From: Desulfobacterales bacterium
Lineage (GTDB): Bacteria > Desulfobacterota > Desulfobacteria > Desulfobacterales > JAAELO01
Assembly (NCBI GenBank): GCA_024226555.1
Contig: JAAELO010000058.1
Span: 1-64,000, forward strand
Length of the DNA stretch: 64,000 bases
Direction: 5' to 3'
In this document: positions 42,621 through 51,478 of the stretch, in pieces
How the letters are laid out: each line of letters opens with the position of its first letter
Numbering within the stretch: position 1 is the stretch's first letter
Position numbers and translations under genes: made by a program
The notes under the pieces: model-generated
The model's database searches: none
Told to the model about the DNA's origin: nothing
What the model saw: the letters and a program-made list of their open reading frames with translations, nothing else

Positions 42621-44780
42621 ATGATTCCCAATTTCGCAAGCGATTTGAACAATTATACAGGTCTTTTTACCGATTTTTTTGAATATAATTATGATTTTGT
42701 TCAAAGAAATACACTTTTTTTAGATACTTTAAGAAAACAAGGTAACGTTTTTCATGAACATAATAAAAATGGGATGCCGCCTGTTTTTGATGAAGGTTTT
42801 GATACCGAAATTATTATAGATGGACGTGATTTCGATAAACCTGTTAACTACGCTCTTTTGAAAATAACTTCAGATAATGGTGTTGAAATTGATGAAACAG
42901 CAAGACCAATAATCATTATAGATCCAAGAGCAGGACATGGACCTGGTATCGGTGGTTTTAAAAAAGATTCTAATATTGGTGTTGCTCTTAGAAACAAAAA
43001 CCCTGTTTATTTTGTTATTTTTTATCCAATTCCTGAAAAAAATCAAACTCTGGATGATGTAAAAAAAGCTGAAGTAACATTTATTAAAGAAGTTGGGAAA
43101 CTTCATCCTAAGGCTGACAAACCTGCAGTAGTTGGAAATTGCCAGGCTGGTTGGGCAATAGCACTAATGGCTGCAGATGAACCGGATTTAGCAGGACCTA
43201 TAATGCTAAATGGCTCTCCCTTGTCATATTGGGCTGGAAAAGATGGTTCAAATCCAATGAGATATAAGGGGGGATTAATAGGTGGTATTTGGATGTCTTC
43301 TCTTTGGGCTGACCTTGGAAATGGTCATTTCGATGGAGCTAACCTTGTTAAAGGATTTGAAGATCTCAATCCAGCTAACACTATGTGGAAAAAACTTTAT
43401 CATGTGTATTCAAACATCGATACTGAAGAGGGTAGATTCCTTCAGTTTGAGAGATGGTGGAACGGATTTTATTTTATGAATAAGGAAGAGATTAAATCAA
43501 TAACAGAAAATCTTTTTGTTGGTAATAAATTAGAATCTGGAGAATTCGAGTTTGAAGAGGGTCGAAAAATTGACCTCAAGAAACTTAAAGAGCCTGTAAT
43601 ATTATTTTGTTCTGAAGGTGATAATATAACACCGCCAACTCAAGCTTTAAACTGGGTTATGAAAGTTTGGGGTACAGTAGAAGAGATTAAAAGACACAGA
43701 CAGGTTATTATATATCTGGTACATGAAAATATAGGTCATCTTGGTATTTTTGTATCAGGAAAGGTTGCAAACAAAGAGCATAAACAGATTATTGGAAATG
43801 TCGATCTGGTTGAGCTTTTATCACCTGGTCTTTATGAAATGGTAATCGATGAAGAACCTAAAACAGATAAAAAAGGAAAAAAGAAAGACTTCTGTTCAGA
43901 ATTTAATGTTAAATTTGTAGAGAGAAATTTCAGTGATATTATGAATTTTGATGATGGCCTTGAAGATGAAAAGGATTTTGAAGTTGTAAATAAAGTATCT
44001 TCCTTTAATGATCAAATATATGAAATGATGATCAGTCCATTAGTTAAATCTTTATCAAATGAGACTTCAGCTGAGTTTCTAAGAACAATACATCCTCTTC
44101 GTAAAGATCGTTATACTTTTTCTGATCTTAATCCTTTTATGAGTTACTTCAAAACCATGGCACCGTACGTTAAAAAGAACCGTAAGCTGGTCTCAAAAGA
44201 AAATGTTTTTCACAAAGTTGAAAAAGTTGTGTCAGATTTAATAGTTACTTCATTTGATTATTACAGAGATGCAAATGACACTACTAATGAGTTTATATTT
44301 AAAAATATCTATGGAAATCCGGTACTAAATGATTTTTTTGGTACCAGTGAGACAAACGGCGTTGAAGAAAAAAAGTTAAAAGATAAAATGAGTTCAATTA
44401 AAAGAAAGGACACAATAAACTGGAAGAATAAAATAGAAGAAGGGAGTTTAATTGAAGGATGCTCACGCATAATGGTCGCAATGGCCAAAGTAGATGATAA
44501 TATTGACCATAAAGAGTTAAAAGCTATGGAAAAGATTATGTCTAATCACATTAAATTAACTAAAGATAAGAAGATAAAACTTACAGAAATACTAAAAGAT
44601 CAGTCAAGGATTCTTCAGGTTAATGAAAAAAATGCTATTGATGCTCTTCCTTTACTTCTGAAATCAAAAAAGGATAGAGAGATTGGAATAAAAATAGCTC
44701 ATAAAATAGCAAAAGCTGATGATATCGTTGTAAAAGAAGAAAAAGCTCTTATTAAAAAAATTGAGACACTCCTAAATTAG
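42621..44780 (+). CDS. DUF3141 alpha/beta-hydrolase with TerB-like C-terminal domain
   Basis: A 719-residue protein. Residues ~90-400 form an alpha/beta hydrolase of the DUF3141 type. PIIIIDPRAGHGPGIGGFK precedes a Cys nucleophile elbow VGNCQAGWA. Candidate acid VILFCSEGDNITPP and His HENIGHLGIF complete a triad. DUF3141 proteins often lie next to PHA synthases. From about residue 590 a helical segment (SLIEGCSRIMVAMAKVDDNI, then KIAHKIAKADDIVVKEEKAL) resembles a TerB-like fold. RBS AGGAG. The next gene follows after 8 bp, so the two probably act together. Function is not established. Confidence 0.8.
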   Translation: MIPNFASDLNNYTGLFTDFFEYNYDFVQRNTLFLDTLRKQGNVFHEHNKNGMPPVFDEGFDTEIIIDGRDFDKPVNYALLKITSDNGVEIDETARPIIIIDPRAGHGPGIGGFKKDSNIGVALRNKNPVYFVIFYPIPEKNQTLDDVKKAEVTFIKEVGKLHPKADKPAVVGNCQAGWAIALMAADEPDLAGPIMLNGSPLSYWAGKDGSNPMRYKGGLIGGIWMSSLWADLGNGHFDGANLVKGFEDLNPANTMWKKLYHVYSNIDTEEGRFLQFERWWNGFYFMNKEEIKSITENLFVGNKLESGEFEFEEGRKIDLKKLKEPVILFCSEGDNITPPTQALNWVMKVWGTVEEIKRHRQVIIYLVHENIGHLGIFVSGKVANKEHKQIIGNVDLVELLSPGLYEMVIDEEPKTDKKGKKKDFCSEFNVKFVERNFSDIMNFDDGLEDEKDFEVVNKVSSFNDQIYEMMISPLVKSLSNETSAEFLRTIHPLRKDRYTFSDLNPFMSYFKTMAPYVKKNRKLVSKENVFHKVEKVVSDLIVTSFDYYRDANDTTNEFIFKNIYGNPVLNDFFGTSETNGVEEKKLKDKMSSIKRKDTINWKNKIEEGSLIEGCSRIMVAMAKVDDNIDHKELKAMEKIMSNHIKLTKDKKIKLTEILKDQSRILQVNEKNAIDALPLLLKSKKDREIGIKIAHKIAKADDIVVKEEKALIKKIETLLN

Positions 44781-44788
44781 GTGACAAT

Positions 44789-46546
44789 ATGTTAAATCTA
44801 ATAAACTTTTCTTCCGATGATCTTTTAAACATAGCTGGATACTCTCCTGCAAATAATGTTGAACAATATAAAACAAATGTACCTATTTCAAGTAAGATAA
44901 TTGGAGGAAATATCAGATATTTCCTTCAATTTAAAAACCTTCTTGGAACCATATCAAAAAAAACTTTTCTTTTCGGTCCTTTATCTGTTTTAGCAGGTAT
45001 GCAAAAAGAGATTATTGATTTTTCATTTACAGCACCGATAACAGCACATGCTAAAGAATGTACCGCTAAAGGTGAGAATCCAGATATTTATGTTGTCCTT
45101 AATGAAAAAATAGAAAAGGATTATTCAGAACTTCTATATGATTTCTCTGGAGAATTTATTAGTAATGGAAAATTTAATAAATCTAAAGCTAAAAAAATAT
45201 CTTCAACTTTTCATGGTAACCTTTTTCTAATCAATAGGATGAGAACTTTTGCAAGACTTGAACTTAGTTATCAATCCCTCGGGCTTACAGGGCTAAACGC
45301 TATGAAAGAGTTATTAGTAACTCTAATAATTGCTATAACCGAACAACCTGTAAAGGGGGATCTACCCTATGTATCAAAAAAGAGAGAATTTAATTTAGAT
45401 GAATATGTTGCCGAATGCAGATTAAGAATAGAAAAACTGTATGAGTTTAATGCCTTTGAAATTAAAACTTTTTCAGAGAATTTTACTAAAGGAAAAATAG
45501 GTTATCTTAAATATGAAATTGTAGAAAAATCAGAAATTCACATTATGAAACTCAGGTATTATCAATCAAAAAATAAAAATGGCAAAATTTTATACCTGGC
45601 TTCTCCTTTAATCAATAAACCTGAAATTTTTGATCTTTCAAAGGGCAAATCTGTTGTAGAAGGACTTTTAAATATGGGGTTCGACGTATATTTGCAAGAT
45701 CCTGGAGAACCTTCAAAAAAAGAGGCTGCCCTTGGTCTGGATTTCTACGGTAAAGAGGTTCACGACAAATACATTGATCTGATAAAAGAAAGACATAAAA
45801 AAGCTGAAATCTATGTAATAGGTTATTGTATGGGCGGAACCCTTGTTTTACCGTATCTTGCAAGAAGAGCAGAAGAAAGGCTTGAGCAAGGTAAAAAGAT
45901 GGACATTAAAAAAATTATATTAATGGCATCACCATTTAAATTTGATGATGAGACTAAATCCGGTCATAAGCCAATGAGAAAAGTTATATCGAATGACTAT
46001 GATAAAATTTTAATGAATGAAATGTATGGAGATGTAAATGTTCCTCCTCAAATAATAGAAGTTGGAATGAATGAAATTCAGCCAGGAGTTCGTTATTATG
46101 TTCGTTGTGGTTTTTATGGTCGTGCAGCCTACCCTGGGGCTATTGAAGATTCTGCCCCATTTTTATATTGGCTTACACACGGAACAAAATTTCCAGCTAA
46201 GGCCCATAGGGAATGGATAAATGATATTTTTGTAGATAATAAAATTTATAAAGGATCTTATTGCTTACCTTCTAAAAGTAAAAATTTTAATAATAAACCT
46301 GTTAACATGGAAATTCTGGAAAAAGCTGGTGTGACAATTTTTGATTACAAAGGTACAAGAGATCCAATATCACCTTCTAGCACTTGTATAGCTGGTGAAC
46401 TATGGGGTTTGACCACTAATAATATATCTCGTAAAAGCAATGGCTTAAATCGGGTTATAGAAAAAAACATTGGTCATATTTTTGTTGTTAGTAAAACTCT
46501 TCTTAAAGATTTTCTGGATGATGTAGAATCTTTTTTAAATTTATAA
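44789..46546 (+). CDS. PHA-synthase-like (PhaC-related) alpha/beta hydrolase
   Basis: A 585-residue protein. The C-terminal half resembles PhaC: the nucleophile elbow is VIGYCMGGTLVLP with Cys in place of lipase Ser, the acid is in FDYKGTRDPISP and the His in KNIGHIFVVSK. The N-terminal ~250 residues are unlike classical PhaC N domains (LTGLNAMKELLVTLIIAITEQP is a recognisable block). It is co-transcribed with the DUF3141 gene. It might polymerise or hydrolyse hydroxyacyl thioesters, or be a granule-associated transferase. Assignment beyond the fold is inference. Confidence 0.72.
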   Translation: MLNLINFSSDDLLNIAGYSPANNVEQYKTNVPISSKIIGGNIRYFLQFKNLLGTISKKTFLFGPLSVLAGMQKEIIDFSFTAPITAHAKECTAKGENPDIYVVLNEKIEKDYSELLYDFSGEFISNGKFNKSKAKKISSTFHGNLFLINRMRTFARLELSYQSLGLTGLNAMKELLVTLIIAITEQPVKGDLPYVSKKREFNLDEYVAECRLRIEKLYEFNAFEIKTFSENFTKGKIGYLKYEIVEKSEIHIMKLRYYQSKNKNGKILYLASPLINKPEIFDLSKGKSVVEGLLNMGFDVYLQDPGEPSKKEAALGLDFYGKEVHDKYIDLIKERHKKAEIYVIGYCMGGTLVLPYLARRAEERLEQGKKMDIKKIILMASPFKFDDETKSGHKPMRKVISNDYDKILMNEMYGDVNVPPQIIEVGMNEIQPGVRYYVRCGFYGRAAYPGAIEDSAPFLYWLTHGTKFPAKAHREWINDIFVDNKIYKGSYCLPSKSKNFNNKPVNMEILEKAGVTIFDYKGTRDPISPSSTCIAGELWGLTTNNISRKSNGLNRVIEKNIGHIFVVSKTLLKDFLDDVESFLNL

Positions 46547-46741: not shown

Positions 46742-46990
46742 TTATTTCTTTGCAAACTCTGTTGCAACTTTAGTAGAAAGTTCATAAGAATCTACTATAT
46801 ATTTATTATTTAACTTAACAATCTCCTCCATAGAATTTAATACTTTTTCATATTGATCAGGATTGAAAAAATTTTTAAATCCAAACATCTTATCAAAACG
46901 ATTTGCTTTGAACATTTCATTAACAATTTCTGTATTAAAAAATTTCTTCATCTTTTCATGGTCAAACATATCAAATGGATTTGTACTCAT
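46742..46990 (-). CDS. Short phasin-like protein
   Basis: An 82-residue helical, amphipathic protein with NPFDMFDHEKMKKFFNTEIV and KVLNSMEEIVKLNNKYIVDS blocks. The last part resembles the central helix of phasins, which coat polyhydroxyalkanoate granules. It is shorter than usual phasins (100-190 residues). The flanking PHA synthase-like genes on both sides support the role. GGAGA lies upstream of the ATG. Assignment is moderate because short helical proteins can look alike. Confidence 0.62.
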   Translation of the reverse strand: MSTNPFDMFDHEKMKKFFNTEIVNEMFKANRFDKMFGFKNFFNPDQYEKVLNSMEEIVKLNNKYIVDSYELSTKVATEFAKK

Positions 46991-47545: not shown

Positions 47546-48517
47546 ATGAACCAACCATTTATATTATCAACAGGTAGTTACCTTCCTGATAAAATCGTTT
47601 TAAATGAAGATTTAACACAGTTTCCTGCTAATGTTTTACCCATAATTTCACAAAAGACCGGTGTTAAAGCCAGGCGGCATGCTGCCAAAGAACAATGTAC
47701 ATCAGATTTAGCAATTAAAGCAGCTTTAAAATGTCTTGAAAAAGCTTCATTTAAACCAAAGAATATCGATTGCATAATTGTATCAACCTCATCACCGGAT
47801 AGAATACAACCGGCAACAGCAACAAGAGTTCAACATAAAATTGGAGCATCCAAAGCCTTTGCTTTTGACATCAATTCAGTATGCTCAGGAAGTGTTTATG
47901 GACTTTTTCTTGCTGATTCAATGATAAGGTCAGGTAGTTGTAAAAACGTTTTGTTTATCGCTTCTGAAGTATATTCAAAAATCACAAATCGAATGGACTT
48001 TTCAACTTTTCCATACTTTGGAGATGGTGCTGGTGCTGTGCTATTGTGCTCCGAAAATTCCCCTGGAATCATTATGTCCCGTTTAGCAACTGATGGAAGT
48101 GGAAGTAATACGGTTTGCATACCTGGTGGGGGCACGATGAATCCTTTAAGTATAGCAAAATCAAATGAAACATTCTTTAAAATGAATGGGAAAAAGGTAT
48201 TTGATTTTGCGATATCAAAAGGCACCAAAATTATTAAAGAACTAATTAAAGAAGCAAAAGTTAATAAAAAAGAGATTAATCAATTTGTTTGTCATCAGGC
48301 AAATATAAATATTCTGCATAAAATTGCTGAGAATCTTGAAATACCTAAAGAAAAATTTTTTGTTAACCTGGATAAATATGGAAATACAGCCAGTGCTTCT
48401 GTTGTAATTGCACTTGATGAAGTGTTTTCAAACAAACTAATTAAAAAGGATGACCTTGTGATGACAATCGGATTTGGTGGTGGCTTATCATGGGGTGCGA
48501 ATTTAATCAGGGTATAG
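47546..48517 (+). CDS. Beta-ketoacyl-ACP synthase III family protein
   Basis: A 323-residue KAS III-like thiolase-fold enzyme. The Cys-His-Asn triad is readable: FDINSVCSGSVYGL (Cys near residue 113), VCHQANINI (His) and KYGNTASASV (Asn). GDGAGAVLL and the C-terminal GFGGGLSWGANLIRV are standard. KAS III condenses an acyl-CoA with malonyl-ACP, and some members act as acyltransferases. It is 29 bp ahead of an ACP gene and upstream of a PHA synthase, and is not in a fab cluster, so a dedicated rather than housekeeping role is likely. Confidence 0.9.
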   Translation: MNQPFILSTGSYLPDKIVLNEDLTQFPANVLPIISQKTGVKARRHAAKEQCTSDLAIKAALKCLEKASFKPKNIDCIIVSTSSPDRIQPATATRVQHKIGASKAFAFDINSVCSGSVYGLFLADSMIRSGSCKNVLFIASEVYSKITNRMDFSTFPYFGDGAGAVLLCSENSPGIIMSRLATDGSGSNTVCIPGGGTMNPLSIAKSNETFFKMNGKKVFDFAISKGTKIIKELIKEAKVNKKEINQFVCHQANINILHKIAENLEIPKEKFFVNLDKYGNTASASVVIALDEVFSNKLIKKDDLVMTIGFGGGLSWGANLIRV

Positions 48518-48546
48518 TTTAAAATTTAACAAAAGGGAGGTAAGAA

Positions 48547-48774
48547 ATGAGTATTTTTGAAAAAATTGTCGAAGGTATTTTTGAATTGTTCCCTTCTGCA
48601 GATGAAATTGAAATTAACGATGATACAGTTTTGGAAGAGATTCCAGATTGGGATTCAATGGCATCAGTTAATTTTATGATGTTTCTTCAGCAGGCGTTTG
48701 ATATTCAACTACCAAATGATTTTTTACATGGTGAACTTAAAATTAGTGAAATTGTAACTCAGGTAGGGGGTTAA
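48547..48774 (+). CDS. Acyl carrier protein-like
   Basis: A 75-residue acidic four-helix protein. The phosphopantetheine site is in EIPDWDSMASVNFMM (Ser near residue 38), a variant of the DSL motif, with Met after the Ser. GGGAGG lies 4-5 bases before the ATG. It sits between KAS III and PHA synthase, with only one base to the next start. It likely carries acyl groups for KAS III and perhaps for the downstream synthase. It is unlike housekeeping AcpP (SLDTVELVM). Confidence 0.88.
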   Translation: MSIFEKIVEGIFELFPSADEIEINDDTVLEEIPDWDSMASVNFMMFLQQAFDIQLPNDFLHGELKISEIVTQVGG

Positions 48775-48775
48775 T

Positions 48776-50398
48776 TTGATTACAGATCCATTTGATATCA
48801 CTTCATCGCTTACAAATCTGTTAACTTCATGGACTAAAAATTCAGATGGGCTCAAAGATATGTTTAAAAAACTTGAGGAAGATATTAATAGTAACTTCCT
48901 CAATTTTTTACAAACTAATGACAAATCTGAAAATAAATTTAAAAAGGATTTAATCAAAAAAGTTAGAAGTAATAGTAAATATGCCAGGAAAAACTTCATA
49001 ACTATTCATAAGTGGATTCAGGAATTCGTAGAAAATGTTCCGGAAACAAGCGATAAAGAGAAAGAACGGTACCTGTTTTGGTCTAAACAGATACTTAACG
49101 CAATTTCACCATCAAATTTTTTCTGGACAAATCCTACAGCTGTGCAAAACTTTTTAAACTCAGAAGGAGGCAGCTTTAAAAATGGGATTGATAACTGGTT
49201 TAAAGATTATTCAAAAGATAATCTTATTAGTTTTGCAAATGAAGATGCTTTTGCTGTTGGAGAAAATTTAGCCACTACAAAAGGTTCAATAGTTTATAAA
49301 AATGATATATTTGAATTGATACAATATGAATCAGTAACTAAAGAAAATTATAAAGTTCCAATAGTTATGATTCAACCCTGGATAAACAAGTATTATATCT
49401 TTGACCTAACTGAAGAGATGAGTTTCGTTAAATATCTCACTGAAAAGGGTTTCACTGTTTTTATGACAAGTTGGCGAAACCCTGATATCACTTTAAGAAA
49501 TTTGGATTTTGAGGATTATATTTTTGATGGAGTCCTTAAATCTATAGAAATCGCAAACGATATTTGTAAAACAAAAAAATCCCATGTTACTGGATACTGT
49601 ATTGGGGGAACTGCATTGACAGCGCTATCAGGTATTTTAAATAATAATAAAATGAAAAATCCAATCCTTGATATCTCTCTTTTCGCATCTTTAACAGATT
49701 TTTCTTCACCAGGTGAAATCTCTTTTTTTGTTAGTAAAAAATCTATACAAAAAATTAAAGAACTAATGGAAATAAAAGGTTATTTAAAAAGTAGTTATAT
49801 ATCTCAGACATTCAGGCTTTTAAAATCTGAAAGTCTAATATGGCCATACTTTGCGAACAATTATTTAAATGGTTCAAACCCTCCAAACTCTGATGTTTTT
49901 TACTGGAATAGCGATAGCACAAGGCTTCCAGAAAAGATGAGTATTTTCTATCTTAATGAGTTTTATCTTAGAAATAATCTGATTAAAAGCAATGCACTTA
50001 AATTCAGAGGCTTTCCCTGTGACATATCCAAAATAAATCAACCCGTATATATTGTTGGTGCAGAGCAGGATCATATAGCACCGTGGAAAGAAACTTATAA
50101 GATATGTGACCATATATCTTCTGATTCGGTTTTTATTTTAGCATCTGAAGGCCATATTGCAGGCTTTTTAAATCCACCATCCCCAAATTCAAGAAGGAAA
50201 TATCGTATAATTGATGACAACAATATAGGTAAATTAACTAAAGATTTTAATGAAATTGAACCTAATATTGGTTCATGGTGGGATCATTGGACTGACTGGC
50301 TTATCGAACAAGATAGTAACAAAATATCATCAGTGGCTGTTGGTAATAAGAAATACCCTGTTTTATATGATGCTCCAGGCAAATATGTAATGGGATAA
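48776..50398 (+). CDS. phaC: Poly(3-hydroxyalkanoate) synthase, class I-like PhaC
   Basis: A 540-residue PhaC. SPSNFFWTNPTAVQNFLNSE is in the N-terminal half, and the nucleophile elbow HVTGYCIGGTAL (Cys near residue 280) follows. YIVGAEQDHIAPWKETYK gives the Asp and LASEGHIAGFLNPP the His. The core matches class I/II synthases and is clearly closer to PhaC than the 585-residue paralogue. The start is TTG with GGGGG a few bases upstream, and it is coupled to the ACP. It polymerises hydroxyacyl thioesters at the granule surface. Which thioester (CoA or ACP) it uses is a question. Confidence 0.88.
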   Translation: MITDPFDITSSLTNLLTSWTKNSDGLKDMFKKLEEDINSNFLNFLQTNDKSENKFKKDLIKKVRSNSKYARKNFITIHKWIQEFVENVPETSDKEKERYLFWSKQILNAISPSNFFWTNPTAVQNFLNSEGGSFKNGIDNWFKDYSKDNLISFANEDAFAVGENLATTKGSIVYKNDIFELIQYESVTKENYKVPIVMIQPWINKYYIFDLTEEMSFVKYLTEKGFTVFMTSWRNPDITLRNLDFEDYIFDGVLKSIEIANDICKTKKSHVTGYCIGGTALTALSGILNNNKMKNPILDISLFASLTDFSSPGEISFFVSKKSIQKIKELMEIKGYLKSSYISQTFRLLKSESLIWPYFANNYLNGSNPPNSDVFYWNSDSTRLPEKMSIFYLNEFYLRNNLIKSNALKFRGFPCDISKINQPVYIVGAEQDHIAPWKETYKICDHISSDSVFILASEGHIAGFLNPPSPNSRRKYRIIDDNNIGKLTKDFNEIEPNIGSWWDHWTDWLIEQDSNKISSVAVGNKKYPVLYDAPGKYVMG

Positions 50399-50512
50399 AT
50401 ATCTGTTTATACTTGCACATTTTAACCTCAGACTTTATCATAAAAATAGCTATTCGAATTTTTTTTTTAATATTCTCAAATTTCAATGAGTAGTATCTGC
50501 CCGGAGAGATTG

Positions 50513-51478
50513 ATGATACCATTAAGAGATGCGAATCCGTCAAAAAATTTCCCTTATGTAACTTATTTTATAATATTACTTAATATTTTCGTATATTTCT
50601 ATCAATTGTCATACGGAAATAATCAAAATGTTTTTATTTATACGTACGGACTAGTACCAGCAAGATACACAAATCCTGCTTTCTTTTTTCATTTTACTCC
50701 TTTTCAACAAGCTTTTTCTTTTTTTTCATATATGTTTCTTCATGGAAATACACTTCATTTGATCACAAACCTCTGGTCCCTTTATATATTTGGTGATAAT
50801 ATTGAAGATCATATGGGCCACATTAAATATTTAGTATTTTACATAATGTGTGGTTTTCTATCTGGTATTTCGCATCTTTTTATTAATCTGGATTCTGTTG
50901 TAGCAACTATTGGAGCAAGCGGTGCTATAGCAGGTGTTATGGGAGCCTATTTAGTTCTTTATCCCCGGGCAAAACTATTAACTCTATTACCAGTATTTTT
51001 CATACCTCTTTTTTTTGAAATTCCAGCTTTTATATTTTTAGGATTTTGGTTTGGCCTTCAGGTTTTTAATGCCACATCTAATAATCCTGCTGAAGTCGCC
51101 TGGTGGGCACACATTGGAGGTTTCGTATTTGGAATATTAATACTTAAACTCTTTTCACTAATACCAGATACTGTAATTGAAAAAAAAATAAAGAACTTTT
51201 CAAAGAAAAAGAAAACTCCTGGTCTGCGATATATAAAACCAAATGGTTTTATTGATAATCTTAACATATATGCAACTATTGAAATTTCAAAGTTTGAAGC
51301 AACCATAGGAGTGACCAAATTTCTTAATATTCCACTTGGAATTCATAAGAGAATTTTAAGAGTACGCATTCCAAAGGATATTGTATCTGGTAGTAAACTT
51401 GTACTTAATGGATATGGTCATAATGATAAGTTTGGAGAAAAAGGCGACCTTATATTAAATGTTAATGTATCTTTATAA
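50513..51478 (+). CDS. Rhomboid intramembrane protease fused to a DnaJ C-terminal-like domain
   Basis: A 321-residue protein. Residues ~15-220 are rhomboid: about six or seven helices, HGNTLHLITNLWSLYIFGDN, the Ser motif GASGAIAGVMGAYLVLYP (near residue 140) and the His in WWAHIGGFVFG. A basic linker leads to a soluble tail from about 250 to 321. The tail reads like DnaJ CTD: IYATIEISKFEATIGVTKF, then ILRVRIPKDIVSGSKL, GYGH and GEKGDLILNVNV. The ATG at 50513 is chosen for its GGAGAG site. No J domain or zinc finger is present. The tail may bind clients for the protease (inference). Confidence 0.82.
   Translation: MIPLRDANPSKNFPYVTYFIILLNIFVYFYQLSYGNNQNVFIYTYGLVPARYTNPAFFFHFTPFQQAFSFFSYMFLHGNTLHLITNLWSLYIFGDNIEDHMGHIKYLVFYIMCGFLSGISHLFINLDSVVATIGASGAIAGVMGAYLVLYPRAKLLTLLPVFFIPLFFEIPAFIFLGFWFGLQVFNATSNNPAEVAWWAHIGGFVFGILILKLFSLIPDTVIEKKIKNFSKKKKTPGLRYIKPNGFIDNLNIYATIEISKFEATIGVTKFLNIPLGIHKRILRVRIPKDIVSGSKLVLNGYGHNDKFGEKGDLILNVNVSL

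Follow-up and report, generated by a model that had tools for sequence, protein, structure and literature searches.

PHA synthases (PhaC) have been described as enzymes acting on CoA esters, and it is held that a transacylase such as PhaG is required wherever fatty acid synthesis is linked to PHA. In engineered E. coli, overexpression of FabH or FabD feeds PhaC, according to the passages of PMC8231600 and PMC8357295 that cite Taguchi 1999 and Nomura 2004, and in an engineered route to PHB the thiolase is replaced by NphT7 (PMC10530661). No operon combining a PHA synthase, a KAS III and an acyl carrier protein (ACP) was found described in the open-access literature, which set the scope of the search. 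Such an operon resides in the window, the stretch of Desulfobacterales DNA of 64,000 nucleotides analysed here. The component families are known; what appears new is the arrangement, the co-specialised KAS III-ACP pair and the clade of PhaCs. On a nearly even balance, genomic comparisons favour the view that the three genes form one module, acting as a private supply of ACP-tethered monomers for a distinct subfamily of PHA synthases.

The trio and its surroundings in the window

The features discussed are listed in Table 1. The three genes are co-directional, and are separated by 29 bases (KAS III-ACP) and by 1 base (ACP-PhaC); order, strand and gaps had been given exactly in the preliminary description. 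The TTG start of PhaC, 1 base past the ACP stop, is preceded by a ribosome site (GGGGG) located within the end of the ACP gene, and is supported by the Asp residue D4, conserved right at the N-terminus in all the relatives aligned. A promoter scan gave results no better than those obtained with shuffled sequences.

Table 1. Positions of the features in the window, and of PilZ genes at loci of relatives
Feature	Position	Strand	Remarks
DUF3141 protein (PF11339, 788 bits), TerB-like C-terminus	42621..44780	+	alpha/beta hydrolase, a distant relative of PHA enzymes
Second PhaC-like alpha/beta hydrolase, 585 aa, class III-like	44789..46546	+	TIGR01836 112 bits, below cut-off; GYCMGG box
82-aa ORF, between tRNA and KAS III	46742..46990	-	phasin-like in look only; no family match above cut-off
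KAS III (FabH-like, 323 aa)	47546..48517	+	residues contacting CoA and ACP rewritten in its clade; triad C113-H250-N280 intact
Shine-Dalgarno-like AGGGAGG, 5' of ACP start	48534..48540	+	sequence
Private acyl carrier protein (75 aa)	48547..48774	+	WDSMA site; helix II start neutral
Class-I-like PHA synthase, trio clade (540 aa)	48776..50398	+	TTG start; C275-D432-H460
Rhomboid protease with DnaJ_C-like C-terminal domain (unusual fusion)	50486-51478		downstream of PhaC
PilZ-domain protein	L043:8192-8701		
PilZ-domain protein	L048:8266-8784		
PilZ-domain protein	L049:4684-5205		
PilZ-domain protein, fragment	L047:4986-5219		

The KAS III belongs to the FabH family by its intact C-H-N triad, which had been read from the sequence alone, and by its scores on two curated models, TIGR00747 (311.9 bits, cut-off 292.1) and NF006829 (344 bits, cut-off 249). 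The ACP matches ACP models weakly (best E 4.8e-5), and when searched by itself has no Pfam match at E 0.01; the cut-off of PF00550 is passed by 5 of the 6 orthologues found first, not by the window copy. The phosphopantetheine serine is located in the WDSMA motif, and DS[MI] occurs in all 27 ACPs compared. The DSM site of this protein had been described early as non-housekeeping; a separate, normal AcpP, acidic and of the DSL type, is encoded elsewhere in the genome by the housekeeping fabG-acpP-fabF genes (contig C351, locus L174). Three further FabH-like proteins of the same genome keep the canonical residues. The synthase had been taken for a full PhaC, and is confirmed as such by the PhaC_N domain (PF07167, 161.9 bits, cut-off 23.7) and by the residues C275, D432 and H460, which do not vary among the 20 trio PhaCs and the 27 canonical ones; the cut-off of TIGR01838 (622.65) is however not reached, either by the window protein (505.7 bits) or by the PhaC of genome G706 (526.1 bits). 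The fold is plain from solved homologues.

Upstream of the trio, and on the same strand, the second PhaC-like gene begins 8 bases past the DUF3141 gene. The two genes denote a PHA-type neighbourhood, rather than a fatty acid synthesis operon. The DUF3141-TerB fusion and the class-III-like PhaC homologue may form a single PHA locus with the trio. A tRNA-Met gene with a terminator-like stem follows the second PhaC-like gene, and precedes the 82-aa ORF. A tight common phasin downstream of PhaC was considered and rejected, the 80-aa ORFs of different loci being not alignable. No gene for a 3-hydroxyacyl-ACP:CoA transacylase of the PhaG type lies at the locus beside the window trio. Genes for a GT2, an MMPL exporter, an acyltransferase or a thioesterase, which would mark an aryl polyene-like cluster, do not adjoin the trio.

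The genome containing the window (G000) measures 7.7 Mb, and is split into 904 contigs. It encodes a full-length DsrA (605.9 bits), from which the organism is probably sulfate- or sulfite-reducing. Contigs C313, C493, C453, C754 and C847 carry several very long open frames (~2,600-4,300 aa), parts of which resemble ketoreductases or acyltransferases; these frames probably encode PKS or PUFA-type synthases.

Distribution and phylogeny

Contiguous KAS III, ACP and PhaC genes, in this order, were identified in 20 genomes, which represent ten families in two classes, all within the phylum of the window. The preliminary description would have been refuted by a trio conserved in no relative, which is clearly not the case; the conservation excludes chance adjacency. 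Trio genomes of the window's order are G000, G040, G059 and G187; those of the other class are G706, G589, G907, G901, G904, G850, G848, G847, G846, G874, G791, G872, G787, G786, G769 and G906. The loci in G769 and G906 are partly cut by contig ends. In G073 both halves of the trio lie near contig ends, and the gap would measure at least ~0.8 kb if these were joined; in G204 and G905 the contig ends before the PhaC position. The genomes are drafts, and the samples were drawn from the window's phylum. Within the window's own order the module occurs in few genomes (5 of 389), and no FabD gene adjoins it; both points count against a private supply.

When 96 relatives were searched with PhaC, the top matches were found in G073, G059 and G040 (42-49% identity), and all the four strongest were of the trio type, the linkage in G073 being broken by contig ends. 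The ordinary PhaCs (33-39% identity) with flanks that were inspected have neither a KAS III nor an ACP within 1.5 kb. A PhaC profile search of 395 phylum genomes at E 1e-170 matched trio PhaCs solely (n=3). From the class sample, KAS III searches retrieved G187 and G204, and from the phylum sample G706 and G589; within the class of G706, 22 of the 155 genomes gave a match. Wherever the contig permits the check, PhaCs of the trio type are accompanied by KAS III and ACP. The distance from ACP to PhaC varies from about -17 to +98 bases across trio loci, and 16 of the 19 measured relatives allow a gap of 25 bases or less. Of 22 genomes checked, 12 have the trio PhaC as their sole strong class I match; seven trio genomes carry an ordinary PhaC too, which again counts against a private supply. 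A contig scan for the trio in named organisms returned just an Acidimicrobiales PhaC, with neither KAS III nor ACP. The plasmid PhaCs closest to the trio, found in Skermanella, Azospirillum and Paracoccus (42-45% identity), have no adjoining KAS III or ACP genes, and plasmid KAS IIIs are at most 42% identical to the trio KAS III.

A gene for FabD (malonyl-CoA:ACP transacylase) directly follows PhaC in 13 genomes, all featuring second-class loci. Genome G874 has another FabD gene in a fabD-fabG-acpP-fabF operon, and the trio-linked gene is there clearly an extra copy. The trio-linked FabD of G706, G589, G907 and G904 may be the main FabD of the cell rather than a private one, a point against private supply. 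A search for a ketoreductase of matching phylogenetic distribution had been proposed at the outset. In two relatives such a gene lies downstream of the trio: a FabG-type reductase gene is located 167 bases 3' of PhaC in G059 (NF006072, 323.6 bits, cut-off 298), and a weaker relative in G187. Both in the window and in G187, the trio lies among further PHA-type genes. In relatives from the window's order, a PilZ-domain protein of ~170 aa is encoded directly 5' of KAS III (Table 1), which hints at a c-di-GMP control of the module.

In the trees, trio PhaCs are placed on one side of a branch (SH-aLRT 100), apart from 27 other PhaCs, which include the canonical PhaCs of seven trio genomes; membership of this clade is directly established. 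The window PhaC is the most divergent member of the clade, which counts against a private supply. KAS IIIs form one clade (SH-aLRT 100), together with two sister sequences from loci L053 and L054. A KAS III-ACP pair with no following PhaC was found in five further genomes, and these KAS IIIs are nested inside the PhaC-linked ones. The link to PhaC thus looks older, and loss of PhaC, or recruitment of the KAS III-ACP pair away from it, is the simpler history. The neighbours of the pair in G836 and G837 (GT2, MMPL protein, lipid-A-type acyltransferase, 4HBT thioesterase) make an aryl-polyene-like set, partly visible in G841 and G773. The pair is therefore not exclusive to PHA, and a different lipid product is possible. 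At loci L136, L139, L140 and L142 the aryl-polyene-like set includes MMPL proteins with a methyltransferase domain, and radical SAM/B12 proteins. A sister KAS III (50% identity), which has no CoA clamp and is paired with an ACP, is encoded at loci L081 and L082; in the latter, the next genes encode an AMP-binding ligase, SDRs and a methyltransferase, as well as a second ACP, in what appears as a small specialised-metabolite cluster.

Residue changes in the three proteins

KAS III residues were compared in 28 clade members and 28 canonical FabHs, according to the numbering of E. coli FabH. In the clade W32 is changed to L, I or M, R36 to K, R151 to F, Y or M, R249 to N or H, F115 to S or G, and F87 to Q in 28/28; K214 and K256/K257 are mostly lost. 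From established FabH work, we take R249 to be the ACP dock. This residue and the CoA clamp (W32/R151, R36) are replaced in every clade member covering the position, whereas W32, R36 and R249 are retained in all 28 canonical FabHs. In FabH, the CoA adenine stacks on W32 and R151, the phosphopantetheine arm is in contact with R36 (PMC4606726), and F87 sits in the acyl pocket (PMC8231600). Changes are found also in the ACPs, at positions equivalent to acidic helix-II residues of AcpP: in all the 27 proteins compared E41 is replaced by N, and D38 by a residue other than aspartate. The co-specialisation of the two proteins is a direct observation, and fits a pair insulated from housekeeping fatty acid synthesis. 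The disappearance of the CoA clamp suggests that the starter of KAS III is unusual, and possibly protein-bound, as it may come from an acyl-protein instead of acyl-CoA. A role of KAS III as a CerJ/ChlB3-type acyltransferase was rejected: the triad of those enzymes is Cys-His-Asp (PMC9573744), and the Asn of the C-H-N triad (N280) is conserved here.

The trio PhaC clade has gained four basic positions (R347, R357, K/R371, K/R475), found in 95-100% of the members, and features a change from F to S at position 372. The segment around residues 357-372 corresponds to a part of Chromobacterium PhaC that has been assigned to the lid, and to the contacts with CoA and within the dimer (PMC5509742, PMC10215190). 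By a rough count, a special enrichment of trio-specific changes in the lid segment is not significant. The new basic residues hint at an ACP dock. The window PhaC lacks R357 and K371, two of the four, which counts against a private supply, and the basic residues hence hint at ACP docking, and do not prove it.

Proposed pathway, alternatives and known systems

The linkage of the genes and the intactness of their catalytic residues are directly established, and the reactions, the starter and the direct use of an ACP thioester by PhaC are proposed as follows. The private ACP would be loaded with malonyl by FabD, encoded next to PhaC in one class, elsewhere in the genome of the window. KAS III would condense an acyl starter with malonyl-ACP to 3-ketoacyl-ACP, C113 being the acylated nucleophile, H250 and N280 assisting decarboxylation. 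A FabG-type reductase would convert the product to (R)-3-hydroxyacyl-ACP, and PhaC would move the hydroxyacyl group from the ACP onto C275, and then add it to the polyester chain. As PhaC is proposed to take the hydroxyacyl group straight from the ACP, neither a PhaA thiolase nor a PhaG transacylase would be needed. The engineered strains, in which overexpressed FabH or FabD feed PhaC and NphT7 replaces the thiolase, indicate that a condensing enzyme and malonyl units are chemically sufficient. It had been raised as a possibility that acyl-ACP made or accepted by KAS III feeds the synthase, which the comparisons support in part. A dedicated supply is favoured by the conserved trio, by the KAS III-ACP co-specialisation, and by the FabG and FabD genes linked in two and 13 genomes, respectively; the direct use of hydroxyacyl-ACP by PhaC and a PHA product are what we infer from the comparisons. 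Tentatively, and with somewhat less than even confidence, we propose a subfamily of PHA synthases that may accept hydroxyacyl groups directly from a dedicated ACP, served by a KAS III that would have abandoned the usual manner of using CoA esters; polyester synthesis would be largely tethered to a carrier protein, and shielded from the CoA pool as well as from housekeeping fatty acid synthesis.

Hydroxyacyl-ACP might otherwise be made and its acyl group then passed to CoA, with either KAS III or FabD in the role of an ACP:CoA transacylase, or through an unlinked enzyme, PhaC using ordinary hydroxyacyl-CoA. This would be the natural counterpart of the engineered FabH-PhaC and FabD-PhaC strains, where overexpression of either enzyme supplies PHA monomer in E. 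coli; FabD is moreover the fourth gene in 13 loci, and PhaC keeps a full class I catalytic core. The KAS III clade has however lost the CoA adenine clamp and R36, which argues against a CoA-dependent transacylase role, and the close spacing of ACP and PhaC, very short at most of the loci, suggests a direct partnership. We regard a transfer to CoA as rather unlikely. It is just as hard, or slightly harder, to credit that the PhaC-like protein is an acyltransferase ending a specialised lipid or polyketide-like pathway, and makes an ester or a short oligoester, not a storage polymer. Such a role would suit the alterations of the lid/dimer-contact segment (S372, K/R371, R357, R347), the canonical PhaC also present in seven trio genomes, the same KAS III-ACP pair found with GT2, MMPL, lipid A acyltransferase and 4HBT thioesterase genes, and the sister KAS III and ACP beside an AMP ligase, an SDR and a methyltransferase. 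It accords poorly with the genomes that have no strong class I match besides the trio PhaC (12/22), with the additional PHA-type genes at the window and G187 loci, and with the nesting of PhaC-less KAS IIIs in the PhaC-linked clade.

KAS III, ACP and FabD are families of fatty acid synthesis, and housekeeping genes might lie beside a PHA synthase by coincidence. This is highly improbable: the housekeeping fabG-acpP-fabF genes reside on another contig, three other FabH-like genes of the window genome encode canonical residues, and the trio is conserved with specialised residues of its own. A coincidence appears largely refuted, given trio conservation and the separate AcpP.

The module here proposed, a private supply of ACP-tethered monomers to PhaC, would have wider meaning. 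A widespread natural KAS III-ACP-PhaC operon points to an ACP-based route drawing monomers from malonyl units. If true, this would broaden the range of substrates that PHA synthases are held to use, and provide a self-contained cassette for PHA engineering. Three small genes would suffice to test whether PhaC can accept ACP thioesters.

In the engineered E. coli strains, as proposed for the trio, a PHA synthase is supplied with intermediates of the fatty acid type through a KAS III or a malonyl transacylase. Those strains rely on the housekeeping ACP and on a CoA-accepting FabH, whereas the trio is a natural operon having its own ACP, and a KAS III with no CoA clamp. In the PhaG route to mcl-PHA of Pseudomonas the monomer originates from 3-hydroxyacyl-ACP, as it would in the trio route; the acyl group is there moved to CoA, whereas the trio features a dedicated ACP and no linked PhaG. 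The acetoacetyl-CoA synthase NphT7, a KAS III-type enzyme, replaces PhaA by using malonyl units, as proposed for the trio, but works with CoA esters and no ACP; in the trio the ACP is encoded within the operon. Class I PhaCs (Cupriavidus necator 5HZ2, Chromobacterium 5XAV/6K3C) share with the trio PhaC the fold family, the C-D-H triad and the PhaC_N domain. The trio PhaC differs from them in forming a separate clade, in the shorter N-terminal region, in lid and dimer-contact residues, and in a TIGR01838 score that falls short of the cut-off. A KAS III is combined with a private ACP, as in the trio, in aryl polyene, dialkylresorcinol and flexirubin clusters, and KAS IIIs of the trio clade occur in an aryl-polyene-like cluster. 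In contrast to the trio, such clusters have no PhaC, and GT2, MMPL or acyltransferase genes do not adjoin the trio in the window.
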